Source: Saprospirales bacterium (GTDB taxonomy: Bacteria > Bacteroidota > Bacteroidia > Chitinophagales > Saprospiraceae). Taken from it: a stretch of 11,214 nucleotides of DNA. Shown here piece by piece: positions 31-10,500 of this stretch. The notes beneath the pieces are model-generated. The model worked only from the letters and a program-made list of their open reading frames with translations, made no database searches and was not told where the DNA came from. Numbering within the stretch: position 1 is the first letter of the stretch; each line of letters begins with the position of its first letter. A program made the translations under genes and the position numbers. Where the stretch lies: the NCBI GenBank assembly GCA_003448025.1, contig DLXL01000387.1, positions 913-12,126 on the forward strand, given 5' to 3'.

Positions 31-837
31 TTACCCCCAATACCCTTGCCGGTCATCGGCAAAAACATCCGAAAAAATGGTGGCCTGCGGCAGTTCCAGG
101 TAGGGATAAACCACTTTCGACAGATACAGCCCCTGCGCGTGCGCGCCGGTGATGATGCGCGGGGTTTGTTTGTTGGCCAAATGGGCCTCAAAATCCTGTA
201 CGCTCATACGGCCCACGCCAATTTCGAGCAGGCGCCCCACGATAATCCGGATCATGCCGGCCAAAAAACGATTGGCGCTGATTTGAAAACGGAGCCGTTC
301 CCCGCGCTGATCCATCCATAAATGCGCCTCGCTCACCCGACAAATGGTGTGTTCATATTTGGCGGGCGACTTACACAGGGCATAATAGTCGTCGTACCCG
401 GGCAACAAAGCCACCGCGGTTCGCATGGCCGTTATATCCAGGTTTAGGCCGGCATACATGGCGCTGCTGTTTTGCAAAAACGGGTCTTTGCGCAAATGGA
501 TGAAATAATCATACCGGCGCAGCACGGCATCGTACCGCGCGCTGGCCCGATCGTGCACCGGAATGATGGCAAAAACCACAATATCCGGCGGCAGGGCAAA
601 ATTGAGTTTCCTGAGCAATTCGTCCGGATCAGTCTCTGCCATATCGGCCTGAAAAAAATACTGACTGGCGTGCACACCTGTGTCGGTGCGACCGCAGCCA
701 AGGATGGTGGTGGGCGTTTTCAATACTTTCAATAAGGCAGCTTCTATAACCTCCTGAATGGTGATCAGATTGGCCTGCCGCTGCCAGCCATGATAGTTTT
801 GCCCGTTGTAGGCGATATGGAAAAAGAAACGTTTGAT
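31..837 (-). CDS. truA: tRNA pseudouridine synthase A, without a canonical start codon
   Basis: TruA converts uridines 38-40 in the anticodon stem of several tRNAs to pseudouridine in the cytoplasm. Numbering from the ATC at 837-835, the protein has the family N-terminus (KRFFFHIAYNGQNYHGWQRQ, residues 2-21), the catalytic motif GCGRTDTGVHAS with the nucleophile Asp52, and a C-terminal half containing RFLAGMIRIIVGRLLEIG, the usual RNA-binding part. The full 268 residues fit the family length of about 250-270. The frame is open only as far as a TGA at 852-850. Between it and the conserved N-terminus there is no ATG, GTG or TTG: the codons read CCT AAC GAA ATC ATC AAA CGT. The first canonical start is TTG at 732, which would delete the conserved YHGWQRQ region. 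I therefore placed the start at the ATC where homologues have ATG. This could be rare AUC initiation, a one-base mutation, or a sequencing error. The fic stop codon lies 7 bases upstream, so co-transcription and translational coupling are possible. Confidence 0.88.
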   Translation of the reverse strand: MKRFFFHIAYNGQNYHGWQRQANLITIQEVIEAALLKVLKTPTTILGCGRTDTGVHASQYFFQADMAETDPDELLRKLNFALPPDIVVFAIIPVHDRASARYDAVLRRYDYFIHLRKDPFLQNSSAMYAGLNLDITAMRTAVALLPGYDDYYALCKSPAKYEHTICRVSEAHLWMDQRGERLRFQISANRFLAGMIRIIVGRLLEIGVGRMSVQDFEAHLANKQTPRIITGAHAQGLYLSKVVYPYLELPQATIFSDVFADDRQGYWG

Positions 838-844
838 GATTTCG

Positions 845-1945
845 TTAGGTCAATAGATCATAATTGGTATTCCTGCCCCCATCCGCTGCTTTTTGCAAAA
901 TTCCTTTATTCATTAGGTCTTGAATGTCACGAAGGGCCGTGTCTGCTGAACATTTGGCGATTTTTGCCCATTTTGAGGTATTCAACTTGCCCTCAAATCC
1001 ATCGAAAAGTTTGTTAAGCATGAGGCGCTGACGATCATTAAGGTTGGTATTCCTATGTTTATCCCAAAAATTCGCCTTGGTCAACACCTGAGCCAACATA
1101 CTATCTGTATTTTGCAAAGCACTATTCAAACAATGTAAAAACCAAACCAGCCACTCGGTAATATCGAGGTCCCCTTTTTGAGTACTCTCCAAAATGGCAT
1201 AATACCGATTTCGTTCTTTCCGGATTTGGGCCGACATGCTGTAAAACCGGCGAAATGGCCCTTCTGCTTTTGACAATTGCATATCTGCAATAGCTCGCGC
1301 AATCCGGCCATTTCCATCATCAAACGGATGGAGCGTAATAAACCACAAATGTGCAATAGCAGCTTTTATTACGGGGTCTAAAGAATCTTCGCGGTTAAAC
1401 CATTGGATAAACACATCCATTTCTTTTTCCAAAACAGCAGCCGCAGGCGCCTGAAAATGCACCCGCTCCCGACCTATGCCGCCTGAAACCACCTCCATTG
1501 GGCCAGTAACGTCATTCCTCCAGCCAGCCACCATAATTTTATACATCCCACTTCGGCCGGTTGGAAATAATGCCGCGTGCCAATCAAAAAGCCGCTCTTT
1601 GGAAAGTGGTTGATTAGAATTTTTCGTTGCATCCATCATCACATCAACCACTCCGTCAATATACCGATCAGAGGGAGGCAACCCTGAAATATCCATGCCC
1701 AGACGGCGCGCGATGGAAGAACGTACCTGACCAGGATCCAGAAACTCACCTTCAATGTCATTAGATTTCAAGACATCCTGTGTTAAGGTTTCCAGTTCCG
1801 CATCCTGCTGCAGCCCAAATCCAAGCGTGATCATTTTACCTGAAAGTCGCCCTTGTAGGTGGCGAACCATCCCCAGTGGAGACAATACAGACGCTGGATC
1901 CCAGATAAACTTTGGCCAATCTGGTAATTGATGGATGTAAAGCAT
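845..1945 (-). CDS. Fic family adenylyltransferase, class II, DUF4172-type N-terminus and C-terminal winged helix
   Basis: Fic enzymes transfer AMP (or another phosphate-containing group) to a hydroxyl of a target protein. The 366-residue product starts MLYIHQLPDWPKFIWD, the typical start of DUF4172-type Fic proteins. It carries the inhibitory-helix motif SNDIEGE at residues 61-67; the S/T-x-x-x-E-G pattern N-terminal to the Fic core defines class II, where its Glu blocks ATP binding. The Fic core motif HPFDDGNGRIAR is at residues 206-217, with catalytic His206 and the phosphate-binding GNGR loop intact, so the enzyme should be active when de-repressed. Residues from about 303 to 366 (RQRLMLNKLF... 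SADTALRDIQDL) look like a winged helix-turn-helix. The ATG at 1945 is chosen because family homology begins there. The open frame extends to 2095, but that extension runs through palindromic DNA and into the upstream gene. Base composition is more A+T-rich than truA (20 G+C of 60 at 1081-1140, against 34 of 60 at 541-600), which suggests separate ancestry. The target protein cannot be told from sequence. Confidence 0.93.
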   Translation of the reverse strand: MLYIHQLPDWPKFIWDPASVLSPLGMVRHLQGRLSGKMITLGFGLQQDAELETLTQDVLKSNDIEGEFLDPGQVRSSIARRLGMDISGLPPSDRYIDGVVDVMMDATKNSNQPLSKERLFDWHAALFPTGRSGMYKIMVAGWRNDVTGPMEVVSGGIGRERVHFQAPAAAVLEKEMDVFIQWFNREDSLDPVIKAAIAHLWFITLHPFDDGNGRIARAIADMQLSKAEGPFRRFYSMSAQIRKERNRYYAILESTQKGDLDITEWLVWFLHCLNSALQNTDSMLAQVLTKANFWDKHRNTNLNDRQRLMLNKLFDGFEGKLNTSKWAKIAKCSADTALRDIQDLMNKGILQKAADGGRNTNYDLLT

Positions 1946-3691: not shown

Positions 3692-4759
3692 ATGTTGTTT
3701 TACACCCACGTCAACGAAGATAATGCCGTAGAACGCCAGGCAATGGCGGGTTCGCAGGCTTCGGAGTTGTTCGTCATAGCCGGAAGCGGAGAACGTGTGC
3801 TGGCTCTGCTGGATCATCCGAGCCTCAGTACAGTGTTTGTGGTAGACAATAACCGTGAGGCACTATACCTCTGCGCACTGAAAATAGCGGCGCTGAAGGC
3901 CCTGGATGTGCAAACCTACCTGCGTTTTATGGGCGTGCTGGAAACCTCCGCCAAAGAGCGCCTTCAATGCTTTGCCCAGCTGGCGCCGGAGCTGGCGGAA
4001 GAATGCCGTGAATACTGGGTTGGAAAGCAGGCTGATTTGGCTGTCGGAGTGTGCAATATTGGTCATTTTGAACAATTTTTGTCCAAAACCCGCCCCATAC
4101 TCCGTTTTTTCCTGGGAAGAAATTTCTACCAGTGTCTGGAAAAACCACGCGCCGAATGGCAGCATTTTCCGCACCTGCGCTGGGCCATGGTGCGCTGGCT
4201 GTTTGCCCGGAGGTTTACTTACCGTTTGTTTGGGTTGCGCGATATGGCTTTCATTGGCAGGGGCGCAGATCTGGCGGCCATACCTGCAGCCATGCAGCAA
4301 AGTATGGAGGAAGACCGGGTGCAGCAATCCTGCCTGTTTCACCTGGTGATGAATGGTCATCTACGGGCCATGCCGCCTGAACACCAGCCGCCCTCCTTCC
4401 AGCCTGTAGTGCTGGAACGCATAAAGGAAGTGCTGGCCGGACGCCGGTTATGCATCCATTATGTTTTGGCCGACGCCCGTGAAGCGCTGGGTACCCTGCC
4501 ATTCAAAGCGGGAGCGAGCCGTTTTTTTTCCTTATCCGACCTGTTGAGTTTTATGGATTGGACAGAAATGCAAAAACTGCTTCTGCAGATAGCACAATTG
4601 CCCAATGGGGAAAACAGGGCGGTTTTCCGGGCATTTGTGCGCAACCGACCGGACGGTGCAGCGCTTCAGGCATTGGGGCCGGCAGAAGACCTGAGTGCCG
4701 CGGAGAGAACCCATTTTTATCAGGTTTTTCAAATAGATTTGTCGCATGACCAAGCCTGA
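3692..4759 (+). CDS. DUF3419 / BtaA-like S-adenosylmethionine:3-amino-3-carboxypropyltransferase
   Basis: The 355-residue product resembles BtaA, which transfers the 3-amino-3-carboxypropyl group of S-adenosylmethionine to diacylglycerol, giving diacylglyceryl-homoserine, the first step to the betaine lipid DGTS. Seen in sequence: LFYTHVNEDNAVE (2-14), equivalent to the BtaA 'LLYSQ-WED' start; the nucleotide-binding loop VIAGSGERVLALL (28-40); VFVVDNNREALYL (48-60) with the acidic ribose-binding position; and the conserved C-terminal segment RFFSLSDLLSFMDW (277-290) followed by a hydrophobic strand near 310-316. The start is fixed by an in-frame TAA at 3686-3688, two codons upstream of the ATG. 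It is the first gene of a four-gene operon and overlaps the next gene by 14 bases. No BtaB-type methyltransferase follows, so the end product is probably not DGTS. The acceptor is an inference from family; another acceptor than diacylglycerol is possible. Confidence 0.82.
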   Translation: MLFYTHVNEDNAVERQAMAGSQASELFVIAGSGERVLALLDHPSLSTVFVVDNNREALYLCALKIAALKALDVQTYLRFMGVLETSAKERLQCFAQLAPELAEECREYWVGKQADLAVGVCNIGHFEQFLSKTRPILRFFLGRNFYQCLEKPRAEWQHFPHLRWAMVRWLFARRFTYRLFGLRDMAFIGRGADLAAIPAAMQQSMEEDRVQQSCLFHLVMNGHLRAMPPEHQPPSFQPVVLERIKEVLAGRRLCIHYVLADAREALGTLPFKAGASRFFSLSDLLSFMDWTEMQKLLLQIAQLPNGENRAVFRAFVRNRPDGAALQALGPAEDLSAAERTHFYQVFQIDLSHDQA

Positions 4760-4952
4760 ACGCGCTCCCTTTGTTGTTGCCGGTTTGAGGCGAAAAATGC
4801 GCATTTTATGGTCAGATTACGTCAATTTCATGGCATACCTGGCCTTTTTACTGATCAATATCACCCTGGGGCGTGTATTGCATCAGGCAGATAAACGCTG
4901 GAAAACCCGGTATCTTGAGCGTCTGATTGCATTTTTCGAAAAACTGGCTTAA
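4746..4952 (+). CDS. Small single-pass membrane protein inside the lipid-type operon
   Basis: This 68-residue protein is not one I recognise. Its ATG overlaps the last 14 bases of the DUF3419 gene and its TAA ends one base before the ATG of the decarboxylase-like gene, so the coupling argues that it is real. The N-terminus is basic (MTKPERAPFVVAGLRRKMRI). Residues of about 28-44 (NFMAYLAFLLINITLGRVL region) form one likely membrane segment. The rest (HQADKRWKTRYLERLIAFFEKLA) is basic and amphipathic and may lie on the membrane surface. The internal ATG at 4797 is an alternative start that would drop the first 17 residues. It could anchor or couple the neighbouring enzymes at the membrane; that is inference from position and topology only. 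Confidence 0.68.
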   Translation: MTKPERAPFVVAGLRRKMRILWSDYVNFMAYLAFLLINITLGRVLHQADKRWKTRYLERLIAFFEKLA

Positions 4953-4953
4953 G

Positions 4954-5646
4954 ATGATCCTTTTTTGGACCCTTTTTGGTACAACAGGTCTGGCTTTTCT
5001 GGGCTGGCGATTCTGGCTCCCCCTACGCAACCCGGAACGGCAACCGCCGCCGGGCGACGGTTTTTTGTCGCCTGCCGACGGGTATGTGGTGTATGTAAGG
5101 CGCGTGGAGCGTGGCCAGATTCCAATTGCCATCAAACAACGGCGCGAGATTCCACTGGAGGAACTGGCAGCTTGTCCATCCCTACAAGGAGCATCCGGCT
5201 GGCTGATGGGAGTGTATATGACGGCCTTTTCAGTGCACCACAATCGGGTGCCGCTGAGCGGCGAAGTGCTGGAAATACAGCGGGTGAACGCCGGAAAAAA
5301 CCGCACCATGGCCCGTTTGTCTACCCGTCTGCTCAGCGGCAGGCAGCCATACGCGGAAGACTGCGATTATCTGATAGAAAACGATCGGGTAACCATGGTG
5401 GTAGCAACTGGTGGCAGTTATTATGCCCTCACGCAGATTGCCGACAAGTGGATCAGTTACATCATCAATACCTGTGTGCCCGGGCAATGGCTAGAGCGCG
5501 GAGCGCAGTACGGCCTGATCCGTTTTGGTTCGCAGGTGGATGTGTTCTTGCCCGATGGTTTGGGCTATCGGCCCGTGGCACGCGAAGGCACGTATGTGTA
5601 TGCGGGGGAGACAATTTTGGCAGAAAAAACGCAATATGAGCCATAA
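4954..5646 (+). CDS. Phosphatidylserine-decarboxylase-like pyruvoyl enzyme (short PSD-A type)
   Basis: Psd enzymes cleave themselves at a Gly-Ser bond, turn the Ser into a pyruvoyl group, and use it to decarboxylate the serine head group of phosphatidylserine at the membrane. The 230-residue product has a hydrophobic N-terminus (about residues 2-23), RNPERQPPPGDG (25-36), SPADGYV (39-45), VHHNRVPLSGEV (94-105) and GLIRFGSQVDVFLP (187-200). In the last motif the cleavage pair is Gly192-Ser193, so autocatalytic maturation looks intact. Length and motifs match the short class rather than the longer E. coli class. ATG 4954 is chosen over TTG 4927 because it follows the previous stop by one base and removes a tail that lies inside the upstream gene. 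Housekeeping psd in Bacteroidota commonly neighbours pssA; here the partner is a BtaA-like gene, which suggests a different substrate with the same alpha-amino-carboxylate head, such as a homoserine ether lipid. A true phosphatidylserine decarboxylase remains the main alternative. Confidence 0.88.
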   Translation: MILFWTLFGTTGLAFLGWRFWLPLRNPERQPPPGDGFLSPADGYVVYVRRVERGQIPIAIKQRREIPLEELAACPSLQGASGWLMGVYMTAFSVHHNRVPLSGEVLEIQRVNAGKNRTMARLSTRLLSGRQPYAEDCDYLIENDRVTMVVATGGSYYALTQIADKWISYIINTCVPGQWLERGAQYGLIRFGSQVDVFLPDGLGYRPVAREGTYVYAGETILAEKTQYEP

Positions 5647-6739
5647 AAACGACCCAAATGAGCCGCGATATGTGTTCAGCACAGCTACTGCGGCCGACAA
5701 TGCCGACATTCTGGAGTTGTTGCGCCGGAGTCCGATCCGCATGGAGATGGATTACGTGATGGACCGGCAAAACAATTTTTTTCTGCTGCACGACTGGCTG
5801 CCGGAAACCAGGGTGTTGCTGGCGCGGGATGCTGCCACAGGCGAACTGCAGGGTTTTTTATCGCTCCTGAAACTGCGGGGATGTGTGGATGGCAGGGAGA
5901 TTTCTTTTCAATACGTAACCGACCTGATCAAAGCGCCGGAAAACCGCAACGCCTTTCTGATGAAGCGGCTGTTGAACTACGGGTTTGTGCAATATTTTGA
6001 TACTCCGCTCATATTTGGACTCATCAATGCCCGCAACAATCCGGCCCGGCGTTTCTCCACTTCTGTGCAGCTACAGTATCCGGGCGATGCAGTGCACACT
6101 TTTCATTACCTGGAAATGGCCCCTTTGTGGCGGCAACGGATCAACCGACGCTACACCTTAAGACAGGCTGAGGATCAGGCCACCATGGATCAGGCCATGG
6201 CTTTGATCAACCGGCATTACGGGCGCCACGCCCTGTTTCAGCCCTTGAATCGGGAGGAGTTGGCCAGGCAGTTGGAGGTTCTGCCAGGGTTTAGCGCCGC
6301 AGATGTGTGGTTGCTGGAGGAAAACGGGCAACTGCTTGGCTCCATGATTACCTATCGGCCTGATGACCTCAGTTCGCTTATTTTGATGCGCATGGACAGG
6401 TGGTCGCGGTTTTTATTCCGGCTTATTCGGGGTGTACACCGGATCACCGGTTTGCTTTTTGATCCGCCGGAGGAAGGTGGCCATATCCGTACCTTACAGG
6501 TGCGTTACCTGGCCGGGAATGAAGAAGTCCGGCGGGTATTGCTCAGGGCGGCTAACAATATGGCCTATGCGGAAAAGCGCCACTCCGTTTCCATGCTGGT
6601 TGATGCTGCCGATCCGTTAGAGCCTTCCAGTTGGGTAACCTACCGATACCAATCCCTCCTGTACGCCAACGGCAGAGACCGTGCCCTGGTAGCGCGTTTG
6701 AAAGAGGGATTGGTATGGATGGATGTGGTGTGGGGGTAG
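5636..6739 (+). CDS. Double GNAT-like acyltransferase, last gene of the operon
   Basis: The 367-residue product appears to contain two GNAT-fold halves. The first (about 11-160) has strands around TRVLLARDAATGELQGFLSL and LIFGLINARNNPARRF (125-140), the latter resembling the helix-and-turn region after the acyl-CoA site. The second (about 172-330) repeats the layout with ADVWLLEENGQLLGSMITYR (222-241) and RTLQVRYLAGNEEVRRVLLRAA (285-306). GNAT enzymes move acyl groups, usually from acyl-CoA, to amines; tandem forms include N-myristoyltransferase-like enzymes. ATG 5636 overlaps the decarboxylase-like gene by 11 bases; the frame extends to 5525, but that would overlap far more of the upstream gene. 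Its place after a BtaA-like and a Psd-like enzyme suggests it may acylate the amine those two would create. The substrate is not shown by sequence. Confidence 0.75.
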   Translation: MSHKNDPNEPRYVFSTATAADNADILELLRRSPIRMEMDYVMDRQNNFFLLHDWLPETRVLLARDAATGELQGFLSLLKLRGCVDGREISFQYVTDLIKAPENRNAFLMKRLLNYGFVQYFDTPLIFGLINARNNPARRFSTSVQLQYPGDAVHTFHYLEMAPLWRQRINRRYTLRQAEDQATMDQAMALINRHYGRHALFQPLNREELARQLEVLPGFSAADVWLLEENGQLLGSMITYRPDDLSSLILMRMDRWSRFLFRLIRGVHRITGLLFDPPEEGGHIRTLQVRYLAGNEEVRRVLLRAANNMAYAEKRHSVSMLVDAADPLEPSSWVTYRYQSLLYANGRDRALVARLKEGLVWMDVVWG

Positions 6740-7588: not shown

Positions 7589-10500
7589 ATGGATTGGTAT
7601 TATAACTACAAAAAACGCCCGGCCCCAAAAGCCGCCCCGGGCGCTACCCGCAAAGAATATGGCGTAACCTGGTGGGGCCAGCAATGGCTGAAAGCACTTT
7701 CGCATATTGACTATTCCAACCGGCTTCCCAGAGGGAAAACGTATGCCAATAAAGGCCTGGCGCATGATCTGGTGCTGAAAGACAACGTCATTTCAGCCAA
7801 AGTAACCGGGTCCATGCCCAAACCCTATAAGGTTGATTTGGCCTTGACGCCGTTTAACGAAGATACCCGCCGAAAGCTGGTACAAATGGTGACCGACAAC
7901 CCCTTGTTCCTATCCAAACTCCTCAACCGGGAATTGCCGACAGAGCTGTTCGAAGCACTCAGGAGCGAAGGGATTCAACTGTTCCCTACCCAATGGAAAG
8001 AGATAGAAGGGCGGTGTTCTTGCCCAGACTGGGCGGTTCCATGCAAACACATGGCTGCTGTGTTTTTCCTCATTGCCAACGAAATTGATAAAAACCCGTT
8101 TCTGGTTTTTGAGCTCCGCCAAGTGGATCTCCTGAAGGCACTGACGGAAGCCGGTTACACAGAAACGGAGCACGACTCCTTTGCTCCCGGAACCCTCGCT
8201 GCCTTGCAACAACCCAGCCGTGCAAACTTGCCTGATTGGCGCCCGGAGGAAGTACAACTGGCCGCGCCTGATTTTTCCCTGATTCCGGATTGCCGGGAAC
8301 CCCTGCTGCAATTACTGTCAGACAAACCGGTGTTCTACCCGGAAGGAAACTTCAAAAAGGAGCTCGCTTCAGCGTACAAACACATAGCAACACCGACAAA
8401 GACGTCTAAAAACGACCTGTCAAAACAAGATCTGCTGGCCCTGCGCAACTGCGAGAAACCACTACTGCTGCTGGATGCTTCCAGTGGCCGACTGATTAGT
8501 GCTTCGCTGCTGGATACAGAGGATCAATCGGTGATGGACTTTGATGATATGAAAGACCTGATCCTTTTTCTGGACCGGTTGCCGGAATCGGAAGTGGCCA
8601 CCAGCTCGTTGCATTTCAGGTGTTTGCACCTGGCCTGGCGATTGGCATCCACGCTGGCCCGGAAAAGCGCTTTTGTGCCGCAATTACTCCAAAATACCGG
8701 CGGCGCCTGCTATATCCGGTGGATACCGGCCCTGCTGAATGCCGAAGTGCGCAATGTTTGCGATCAAATGAAAGCCCTCGTACCACCCGGAATACTGGTG
8801 TATGTAGACGACGAGCAGGAGTATGAGCCCTCAGAACCTGACGCATTGAATGCCCTGCTGGCTTTGTTTTTAGGTCATTACGCTGAAACATACCGGTATT
8901 CCAGCTGGAAGTTTGACGAACGGCAAATCTGGTTTTTCTCCGGCCTTCCGGACTCCTTCGACCGGTTTGAGACCCGTGAATATCCCAAAAGTATCCACCT
9001 GTGGCTAAGTCGGTTTTTCATTGCCGAAAAAGCCATTGTGCCGGTGTTTGAAGTGCACCTGCAGGACGACGATTTTGAGGTGTCGGTGAGTATGGAAGAC
9101 CGCCAGTCGGACTTCCAGGCGCCTGTGCCGCTGGACAAGGTTTTGTCGGATAAAAAACATGCCCGTCTGCGGCTCGACGCTTTACGGGACCTGACCATGG
9201 TGGCCGAGTTTTTCCCTGAATTGAACGAGGTGATTTCCTCCAATGGAAAAAGCAAACTGCTGTTCAACTCCCAGTCCTTTGCCAACGTTTTTTTCAAGGC
9301 ACTGCCGGTGATTCGGCTGTTCGGTATTAGGGTATTGCTGCCCAAAGCCCTGGAAAAGGTATTCCGCCCGGCCATGTCTATGTCGCTCAATGCAGCTAAT
9401 CAAGGTAAAATAAGCGGTACGGGCTTGCTGTCGTTTGCCAACATGATTGATTTTGAGTGGCAAATCGCCCTGGGTGACCAGCAGATGTCGCCCGAAGCAT
9501 TTGCCCTACTAGTCAAAAAAATGCGCGGCATCGTACGCCTGGCCAACGGATATGTATTTTTGGACGAACAGGAAATAAGCTCATTGCTGCACAAAATGCA
9601 ACACGAGCCGCGCCCTTCCGGGCCCAAACTGTTGCAAATAGCCTTGACAGGCGAGTACAGGAGCATGCCGGTACAACTCACAGATTCGGCCAGAGCCTTG
9701 ATTGCAGAACTGCTCCGACCCGACGCGGCGCCGCTGCCGGCGGGCCTCCAGGCTACTTTGCGACCCTATCAGGTGCGCGGATATGAATGGCTGTACAAAA
9801 ACACGCGGCTCGGACTGGGCAGCTTGATTGCCGACGATATGGGGTTGGGCAAAACCCTTCAAGTGATTGCCACCCTCCTGCGCCTCAAAGAAGAAGGCGC
9901 ACTTGGCGCCGGCAAGCAGGCGCTGGTAGTGGTGCCTACCACCCTGCTTACCAACTGGACCAAAGAGATAACCCGCTTTGCGCCCGAACTGCAGGCCCGG
10001 GTGTACCACGGCGCCGCGAGGGTGCGCACGCTGCCCAAAGATGCCGATGTACTGCTCACCACTTACGGGATGCTGCGCACTGATGCGGAGCTTTTCCAAA
10101 AACCACTCTGGCAGGTTTTGGTGCTGGATGAAGCGCAAAACATCAAAAACCTGAACACCGGACAAACCCAAACCGTAAAAAAGCTCAAGGCTTCCGTACG
10201 CATAGCTATGACCGGCACCCCGGTGGAAAACCGGTTGAGCGAATACTATTCCATCTTCGATTTTGCCAACCACGGTTACCTGGGCTCCGTCAAGACCTTC
10301 ACTGAAGAGTTTGCCAAACCCATAGAGCTGGAGCGCAACCATGCGGTATTGAGCAACTTCCAGCGGACTACCGCACCCTTCCTGCTACGCCGGGTAAAAA
10401 CAGATAAAAGCATCATCAGCGACCTGCCCGACAAGGTGGAGAAAAATCAATATTGCACCCTTAGTGCAGAGCAGGCTGCCTTGTACCAAAACGTAGTGGA

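Follow-up and report, generated by a model that had tools for sequence, protein, structure and literature searches.

What does an operon make that joins a relative of the betaine-lipid enzyme BtaA to a phosphatidylserine decarboxylase (Psd)-family protein and a tandem GNAT? The question is raised by positions 3692 to 6739 of a stretch of 11,214 nucleotides (hereafter the window) from a Saprospirales bacterium (GCA_003448025.1, contig DLXL01000387.1), which is contig 214 (C214) of the host genome (G000; 5.3 Mb, 648 contigs, 84.5% complete). On the + strand lie, in order, genes for a DUF3419 protein, a 68-amino-acid (aa) open reading frame (ORF), a Psd-family protein and a tandem GNAT; the intervals between them are -14, +1 and -11 bases, and the original prediction had the coordinates, strand, both overlaps and the gap right. 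We propose, at just short of an even chance, that the product of this operon is a phosphate-free N-acylated amine carried by a lipid or a lipid-like acceptor. The features are as follows:

3692..4759, + strand: DUF3419 (PF11899) S-adenosylmethionine (SAM)-dependent transferase, a divergent BtaA relative, 355 aa (Pfam, alignment, tree)
4746..4952, + strand: 68-aa ORF, possible membrane protein without a family, overlapping the DUF3419 gene by 14 bases
4954..5646, + strand: Psd-family pyruvoyl decarboxylase, 230 aa, ATG start (Pfam, alignment, model)
5527..5532, + strand: Gly-Ser self-cleavage site, codons of Gly192-Ser193 (sequence, alignment)
5636..6739, + strand: tandem GNAT with N-myristoyltransferase (NMT)-like fold, predicted N-acyltransferase, 367 aa (weak Pfam matches, model)
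6722..6736, + strand: invariant Asp363 and the last four residues, a conserved C-terminus and candidate catalytic carboxylate (homologue alignment)

As expected from its family, the DUF3419 protein would move the 3-amino-3-carboxypropyl group of SAM onto an acceptor hydroxyl, most simply that of diacylglycerol, giving a homoserine ether. The Psd-like pyruvoyl enzyme, probably membrane-anchored, would then strip the alpha-carboxyl to leave a 3-aminopropyl ether, and the NMT-like tandem GNAT would N-acylate the resulting amine, with acyl-CoA (or acyl-ACP) as donor, a step suggested by its fold and its conserved C-terminus. A role as membrane accessory is possible for the 68-aa ORF, which may not be a gene at all: its third-position G+C (0.49) is lower than in the other three genes of the operon (0.58-0.65). 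A Pfam scan matched it to no family. A pathway of this kind had been proposed before for the locus; linkage, recurrence, a second Psd, a separate btaA-btaB pair and the NMT-like GNAT now speak for it, an argument from the Psd head-group pocket has been lost, and acceptor and reactions are still predicted.

The linkage appears to recur in metagenomes. Our homologue lists give the longest contig for each protein cluster, and exactly equal lengths were compared between lists. DUF3419 and Psd share the lengths 12703, 257454, 3979, 3729 and 7298; DUF3419 and GNAT share 16504 (the window's own), 8747, 12703 and 257454; GNAT and Psd share 11788, 50528, 12703, 16326, 2612, 6440, 30383, 257454, 17521 and 51376. 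Across the three pairings these are 15 distinct lengths, whereas a chance model with 5% length jitter expects 0.52, 0.15 and 0.15 matches; one short DUF3419-Psd match could be due to chance, but the whole set could not. If equal length is read as the same contig, linkage of the three genes looks conserved, their order there being presumed. Together with two other families in which DUF3419, Psd and a GNAT-like gene are combined separately (below), this answers the earlier concern that relatives might lack any conserved linkage. The operon is rare among sampled genomes: within the order, the GNAT profile matches 2 of 396 genomes, namely that of the window and, weakly, G241. A DUF3419 match was found in 9 of 60 relatives, and neither a Psd nor a GNAT of the window type was found beside the DUF3419 genes of those whose stretches were read. 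A 92% identical GNAT occurs in a Saprospiraceae metagenome-assembled genome (MAG), and an 84% identical DUF3419 fragment occurs both in a genus-mate (G020) and in JAFLBO010000022.1, a Chitinophagales MAG. The broken copy in the genus-mate (L021, about 9107-10198) holds the first 174 residues and continues into a stretch resembling, by eye, an inverted ThiL-like gene as found in the Lunatimonas-type cluster described below; the break is either a rearrangement or an assembly fault.

Elsewhere, the host carries other copies of the relevant enzymes. A second Psd, at C330, passes NF003678 (262.8 bits over a cut-off of 225; one of eleven models passed), so the possibility that the window Psd is the only one in the genome is rejected. 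There is one PssA-like enzyme (TIGR00473, 95 bits, cut-off 107). At C213 lies a canonical DUF3419 protein (330 bits to PF11899), directly followed by a methyltransferase that is BtaB-like by position and family. The reported lack of BtaB thus holds for the window and not for the genome, and trimethylated betaine lipid (DGTS) was rejected as the product of the window operon, which has no BtaB while a separate btaA-btaB pair exists. The host therefore has separate equipment for phosphatidylethanolamine and probably for betaine lipid, which suggests that the window operon needs another role.

The tandem GNAT was borne out by a structural model (predicted local distance difference test, pLDDT, 88.9) that aligns end to end with two-domain GNATs and has the fold of a long-chain N-acyltransferase. 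Pfam gives weak one-domain matches (PF13527, 2.1e-5, just at the cut-off; PF13480, 0.0015, below it). No NMT family matched in Pfam or NCBIfam scans, and a PDB sequence search with the GNAT profile found no NMT chain and no relative. The position of the C-terminus is fixed in 25 of the 25 homologues listed, and its carboxylate is, judged from sequence, a candidate catalytic group. As in eukaryotic NMT, two GNAT folds are predicted along the full length; unlike NMT, the protein is bacterial, shares 12-14% identity and is an N-acyltransferase by prediction only. To our knowledge, its ending of Asp plus four residues is not known from NMT. Enzymes of the OlsB/OlsF type (PF13444) likewise N-acylate an amine to give a phosphorus-free lipid, according to the available text of a review (PMC11631085), but they acylate a free amino acid, and PF13444 is not among the Pfam matches of the window GNAT to E 0.01.

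The Psd-family protein matches PF02666 (E 1.4e-32), and its Gly-Ser cleavage site, described before as intact, is indeed present at 5527-5532 and invariant in 27 of 27 alignment rows; Ser193 would become the pyruvoyl group after self-cleavage. Asp42, His95 and Ser193 are kept and Arg98 replaces E. coli His147; PF02666, the GS site, the active-site Asp and the equivalent of His144, which mark phosphatidylserine decarboxylases, are all found. The predicted structure has an N-terminal helix (2-24) and E. coli PSD as its top Foldseek match; the amino-acid decarboxylases PsiD and arginine decarboxylase also have the Psd fold. Eleven NCBIfam models match and none is passed (best 87 bits, against cut-offs of 183-377). 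Thus the protein resembles E. coli Psd and the short type at C330 in family, cleavage site, active-site Asp/His and fold, but falls below every matched NCBIfam cut-off, has GSQ rather than GSR, carries extra loops compared with the host's Psd and is linked to DUF3419. At E 1e-25 the subfamily was found in 9 of 338 genomes, with only G814 besides the window above 110 bits; the 14-kb stretch of G814 has no DUF3419 or GNAT profile match. Its Psd (L126, 10222-11109) has the same FGSQVDV site and lies amid polysaccharide-like genes, judged by eye. Other relatives (P0145, P0152, P0156, P0158-P0164, P0170) share 47-55% identity and spread the subfamily over phyla; several are assigned to Kribbella, Rhodococcus, Williamsia, Pseudonocardiaceae and a Rhodobacteraceae MAG. 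Among PDB sequences the Psd profile retrieved no relative, a plasmid search with the actinobacterial P0161 gave 35.9% identity at best, and scans of viral contigs for Psd and for GNAT gave none.

BtaA carries out diacylglyceryl-O-homoserine synthesis, and the window protein belongs to the same family (PF11899, E 3.6e-22, 79.5 bits, above the curated cut-off of 28.2), keeping Asp52 and Asn54 of the SAM site (Asp67 and Asn69 in C213 numbering). The family assignment made before therefore stands, but the SAM loop reads GSGER, not the SAGxN of BtaB-linked BtaA proteins. Trp24, Asn51 and Gln72 (C213 numbering), at least 90% conserved among 31 BtaB-linked proteins, are Asn8, Arg35 and Ala57 in the window, and Asn, Arg and Ala occupy these positions in 7 of the 7 window-clade members examined. 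The BtaB-linked group has 56 columns conserved to at least 90%; at these, the residue is kept at 41% in the window clade (seven members) and, in a comparison of the same type, at 54% in the UbiA-type group, which, unlike the window clade, is unchanged at Trp24, Asn51 and Gln72. BLASTP against the host's own BtaA gives 33.9 bits. The window also differs from BtaA/BtaB in having Psd and GNAT and no adjacent BtaB. PDB searches with the DUF3419 sequence and profile found no relative, and a plasmid search with it found none.

Two points limit the case for the pathway as drawn. The changed conserved positions of the DUF3419 protein are a real warning that leaves diacylglycerol unproven as the acceptor; since the window clade changes Trp24, Asn51 and Gln72, aminocarboxypropyl transfer, which its family would suggest, has a weaker case than in the UbiA type. 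In addition, the proposed comparison of head-group pockets gives it no support, as the window Psd shows no loss of the E. coli phosphate contacts, with Tyr88 at the place of Tyr137 and Thr118 at that of Ser166. The host's housekeeping Psd has Phe and a gap there, and the pocket was rejected as evidence, as these positions do not separate the enzymes.

The wider distribution of DUF3419 places the window among loci lacking BtaB. Of 395 Bacteroidota genomes, 46 (the window's among them) have PF11899, at 48 loci. In 31 of these a BtaB-like gene lies next door or one gene away, and none of the 31 has a panel GNAT, Psd or UbiA; among the 17 without BtaB, a GNAT or GNAT-like gene lies within 6.9 kb in 16 and a UbiA-like gene in 10. 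Neighbours were classed by a panel of neighbour proteins, 6.9 kb (L072) being the largest distance counted as nearby, over stretches of mostly 14 kb in the BtaB group and 4-20 kb in the others; the split refers to those 48 loci, and L022, L025-L029, L163, L078, L016/L017, L021 and L023/L024 were read but uncounted. The locus of G665 (L160) has no GNAT in its 14-kb stretch; in its near-copy L074 the GNAT lies 6.6 kb from DUF3419, beyond the reach of that stretch. Several GNAT-like calls rely on neighbour similarity (no Pfam match at L019, L064, L076 and L069; below the cut-off at L068). Profiles of the second-group GNAT kinds matched 0 of 31 BtaB loci even at E 0.1; they were built from most second-group proteins, so that only this zero counts as a test, and GNATs of other kinds could lie at BtaB loci, where Pfam covered two genes either side. 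Those 123 neighbours included 30 methyltransferases, and none of the 25 families listed for them (each with at least 9 members) is a GNAT, whereas 92 hand-chosen neighbours of non-BtaB loci gave UbiA 13, GNAT models 12, 8 and 6 (overlapping) and Psd 3. In a tree of 71 proteins (leaving out L016, which nearly duplicates L017, the broken L021, and L023/L024, whose locus is divided between two contigs), a 100/100 branch separates the 31 BtaB-linked proteins from the other 40, among them the window clade. Given this one deep split, presence versus absence of BtaB appears to be one event; the non-BtaB side includes two GNAT groups without mutual phmmer matches at E 1e-6. PF02666 occurs in 53 of 55 genomes with DUF3419, and Psd lies near DUF3419 in three: the window (G000 C214), G552 (C37, adjacent) and G760 (C57, 3.1 kb). 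Each of the three has a further Psd elsewhere; another four genomes carry two Psds, unlinked, and at three BtaB loci (G496, G562, G658) a housekeeping-size Psd 17-23 kb away on the same contig was not counted as linked. The Psds of G552 and G760 are alike (359 bits) and of a longer GGST type, whereas that of the window is of the short GSQ type; we infer at least two settings in which Psd came to stand with DUF3419 and a GNAT-like gene.

A UbiA-like/PEP-synthase-like/DUF3419/CTP-transferase-like/GNAT-like cluster, often with an SRPBCC-type protein, recurs in several Bacteroidota families (L019, L022, L025-L029, L066, L067, L070, L072, L074, L075, L160, L163), with some members missing where contigs end. 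L019 is the host's own C338, where DUF3419 stands with UbiA-like, PEP-synthase-like and GNAT-like genes. At L017 (Lunatimonas salinarum) and L023/L024 (G045), relatives of the window DUF3419 lie in a ThiL-like/BioF-like/DUF3419/GNAT-like/lipid kinase/UbiA-like cluster. In L071 and L078, DUF3419 is beside an aldehyde-decarbonylase-like protein (PF11266 in L078) and a GNAT; we take further neighbours there to resemble acyl-ACP reductase (Shikimate_DH in Pfam) and MmgE/PrpD. A 620-aa DUF3419 protein in L065 (9073-10935, G544) has an extra N-terminal membrane part, presumably resembling an isoprenylcysteine-methyltransferase-type domain.

The varied company of these sister loci (UbiA, PEP-synthase-like, lipid-kinase, BioF-like and aldehyde-decarbonylase-like genes), together with the distance of the window clade from BtaA and its changed residues, also fits the same three steps on another acceptor hydroxyl or amine (a fatty alcohol, glycolipid or small metabolite), with an acylated secondary metabolite, not a bulk membrane lipid, as the product. 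We regard this as unlikely but by no means negligible: Pfam recognised no gene of the window operon as making a special acceptor, and the modelled N-terminal helix of the Psd would suit an enzyme whose substrate is in the membrane.

Alternatively, the genes could be ordinary neighbours, with Psd a second phosphatidylserine decarboxylase, GNAT acting elsewhere and DUF3419 independent. The catalytic and phosphate-contact residues of the window Psd are compatible with phosphatidylserine decarboxylation, E. coli PSD is its best structural match and the host has one PssA-like enzyme. However, the housekeeping Psd is already there, the window linkage seems to recur in metagenomes, and two settings, each with its own Psd subfamily, bring together DUF3419, Psd and a GNAT-like gene; we consider this reading clearly unlikely. 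A reverse order, in which the Psd-like enzyme decarboxylates SAM before DUF3419 transfers an aminopropyl group, is very improbable, although the Psd fold includes amino-acid decarboxylases and such an order is not completely ruled out for MccE/MccD in the available text of PMC10491745.

That text proposes for microcin C the same reaction pair as in our N-acylated-amine pathway, with aminocarboxypropyl transfer by a SAM-dependent transferase and then decarboxylation to aminopropyl, by MccD and MccE, and sees no apparent homology between BtaA and MccD (PMC10491745). The systems differ in cofactor (pyridoxal phosphate versus the pyruvoyl group of the window) and in substrate, a peptide-nucleotide versus the proposed lipid, which in the window would then be N-acylated. 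A literature search of titles and abstract openings found no paper on a DUF3419-Psd-GNAT pathway, and the bacterial aminolipid review contains, in its available text, no word starting with 'decarboxyl' (PMC11631085). A broader and rather unlikely proposal is that the BtaA family of Bacteroidota has a second branch, linked to GNATs, in whose hosts the homoserine-ether amine is N-acylated instead of trimethylated; in the window type, pyruvoyl decarboxylation would give a 3-aminopropyl ether, and an NMT-like tandem GNAT with a C-terminal carboxylate a phosphate-free analogue of N-acyl phosphatidylethanolamine. If so, BtaA-family chemistry would be an entry to phosphate-free N-acyl lipids beyond betaine lipids, and several unread Bacteroidota gene clusters would belong to that broader set. 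Moreover, a C-terminal carboxylate as catalytic base, described in the available text of a 2016 review as unique to NMT among GNATs (PMC4964394), would no longer be so.

The operon is flanked by an arylsulfotransferase-like gene 124 bases upstream, in the opposite direction, and by a convergent 237-aa gene without a Pfam family 5 bases downstream. Scans for promoters (2 found versus 3.7 expected) and terminators (9 versus 4.9) were not used. At 31-845 (- strand), the TruA frame runs upstream of its listed TTG with no ATG, GTG or TTG before the next stop, and a typical-looking TruA N-terminal sequence is present there, pointing to an unusual start or a small error. As listed, the Fic (DUF4172) gene shares 52 bases (2044-2095) with the arylsulfotransferase-like gene, and its true start is probably further inside.

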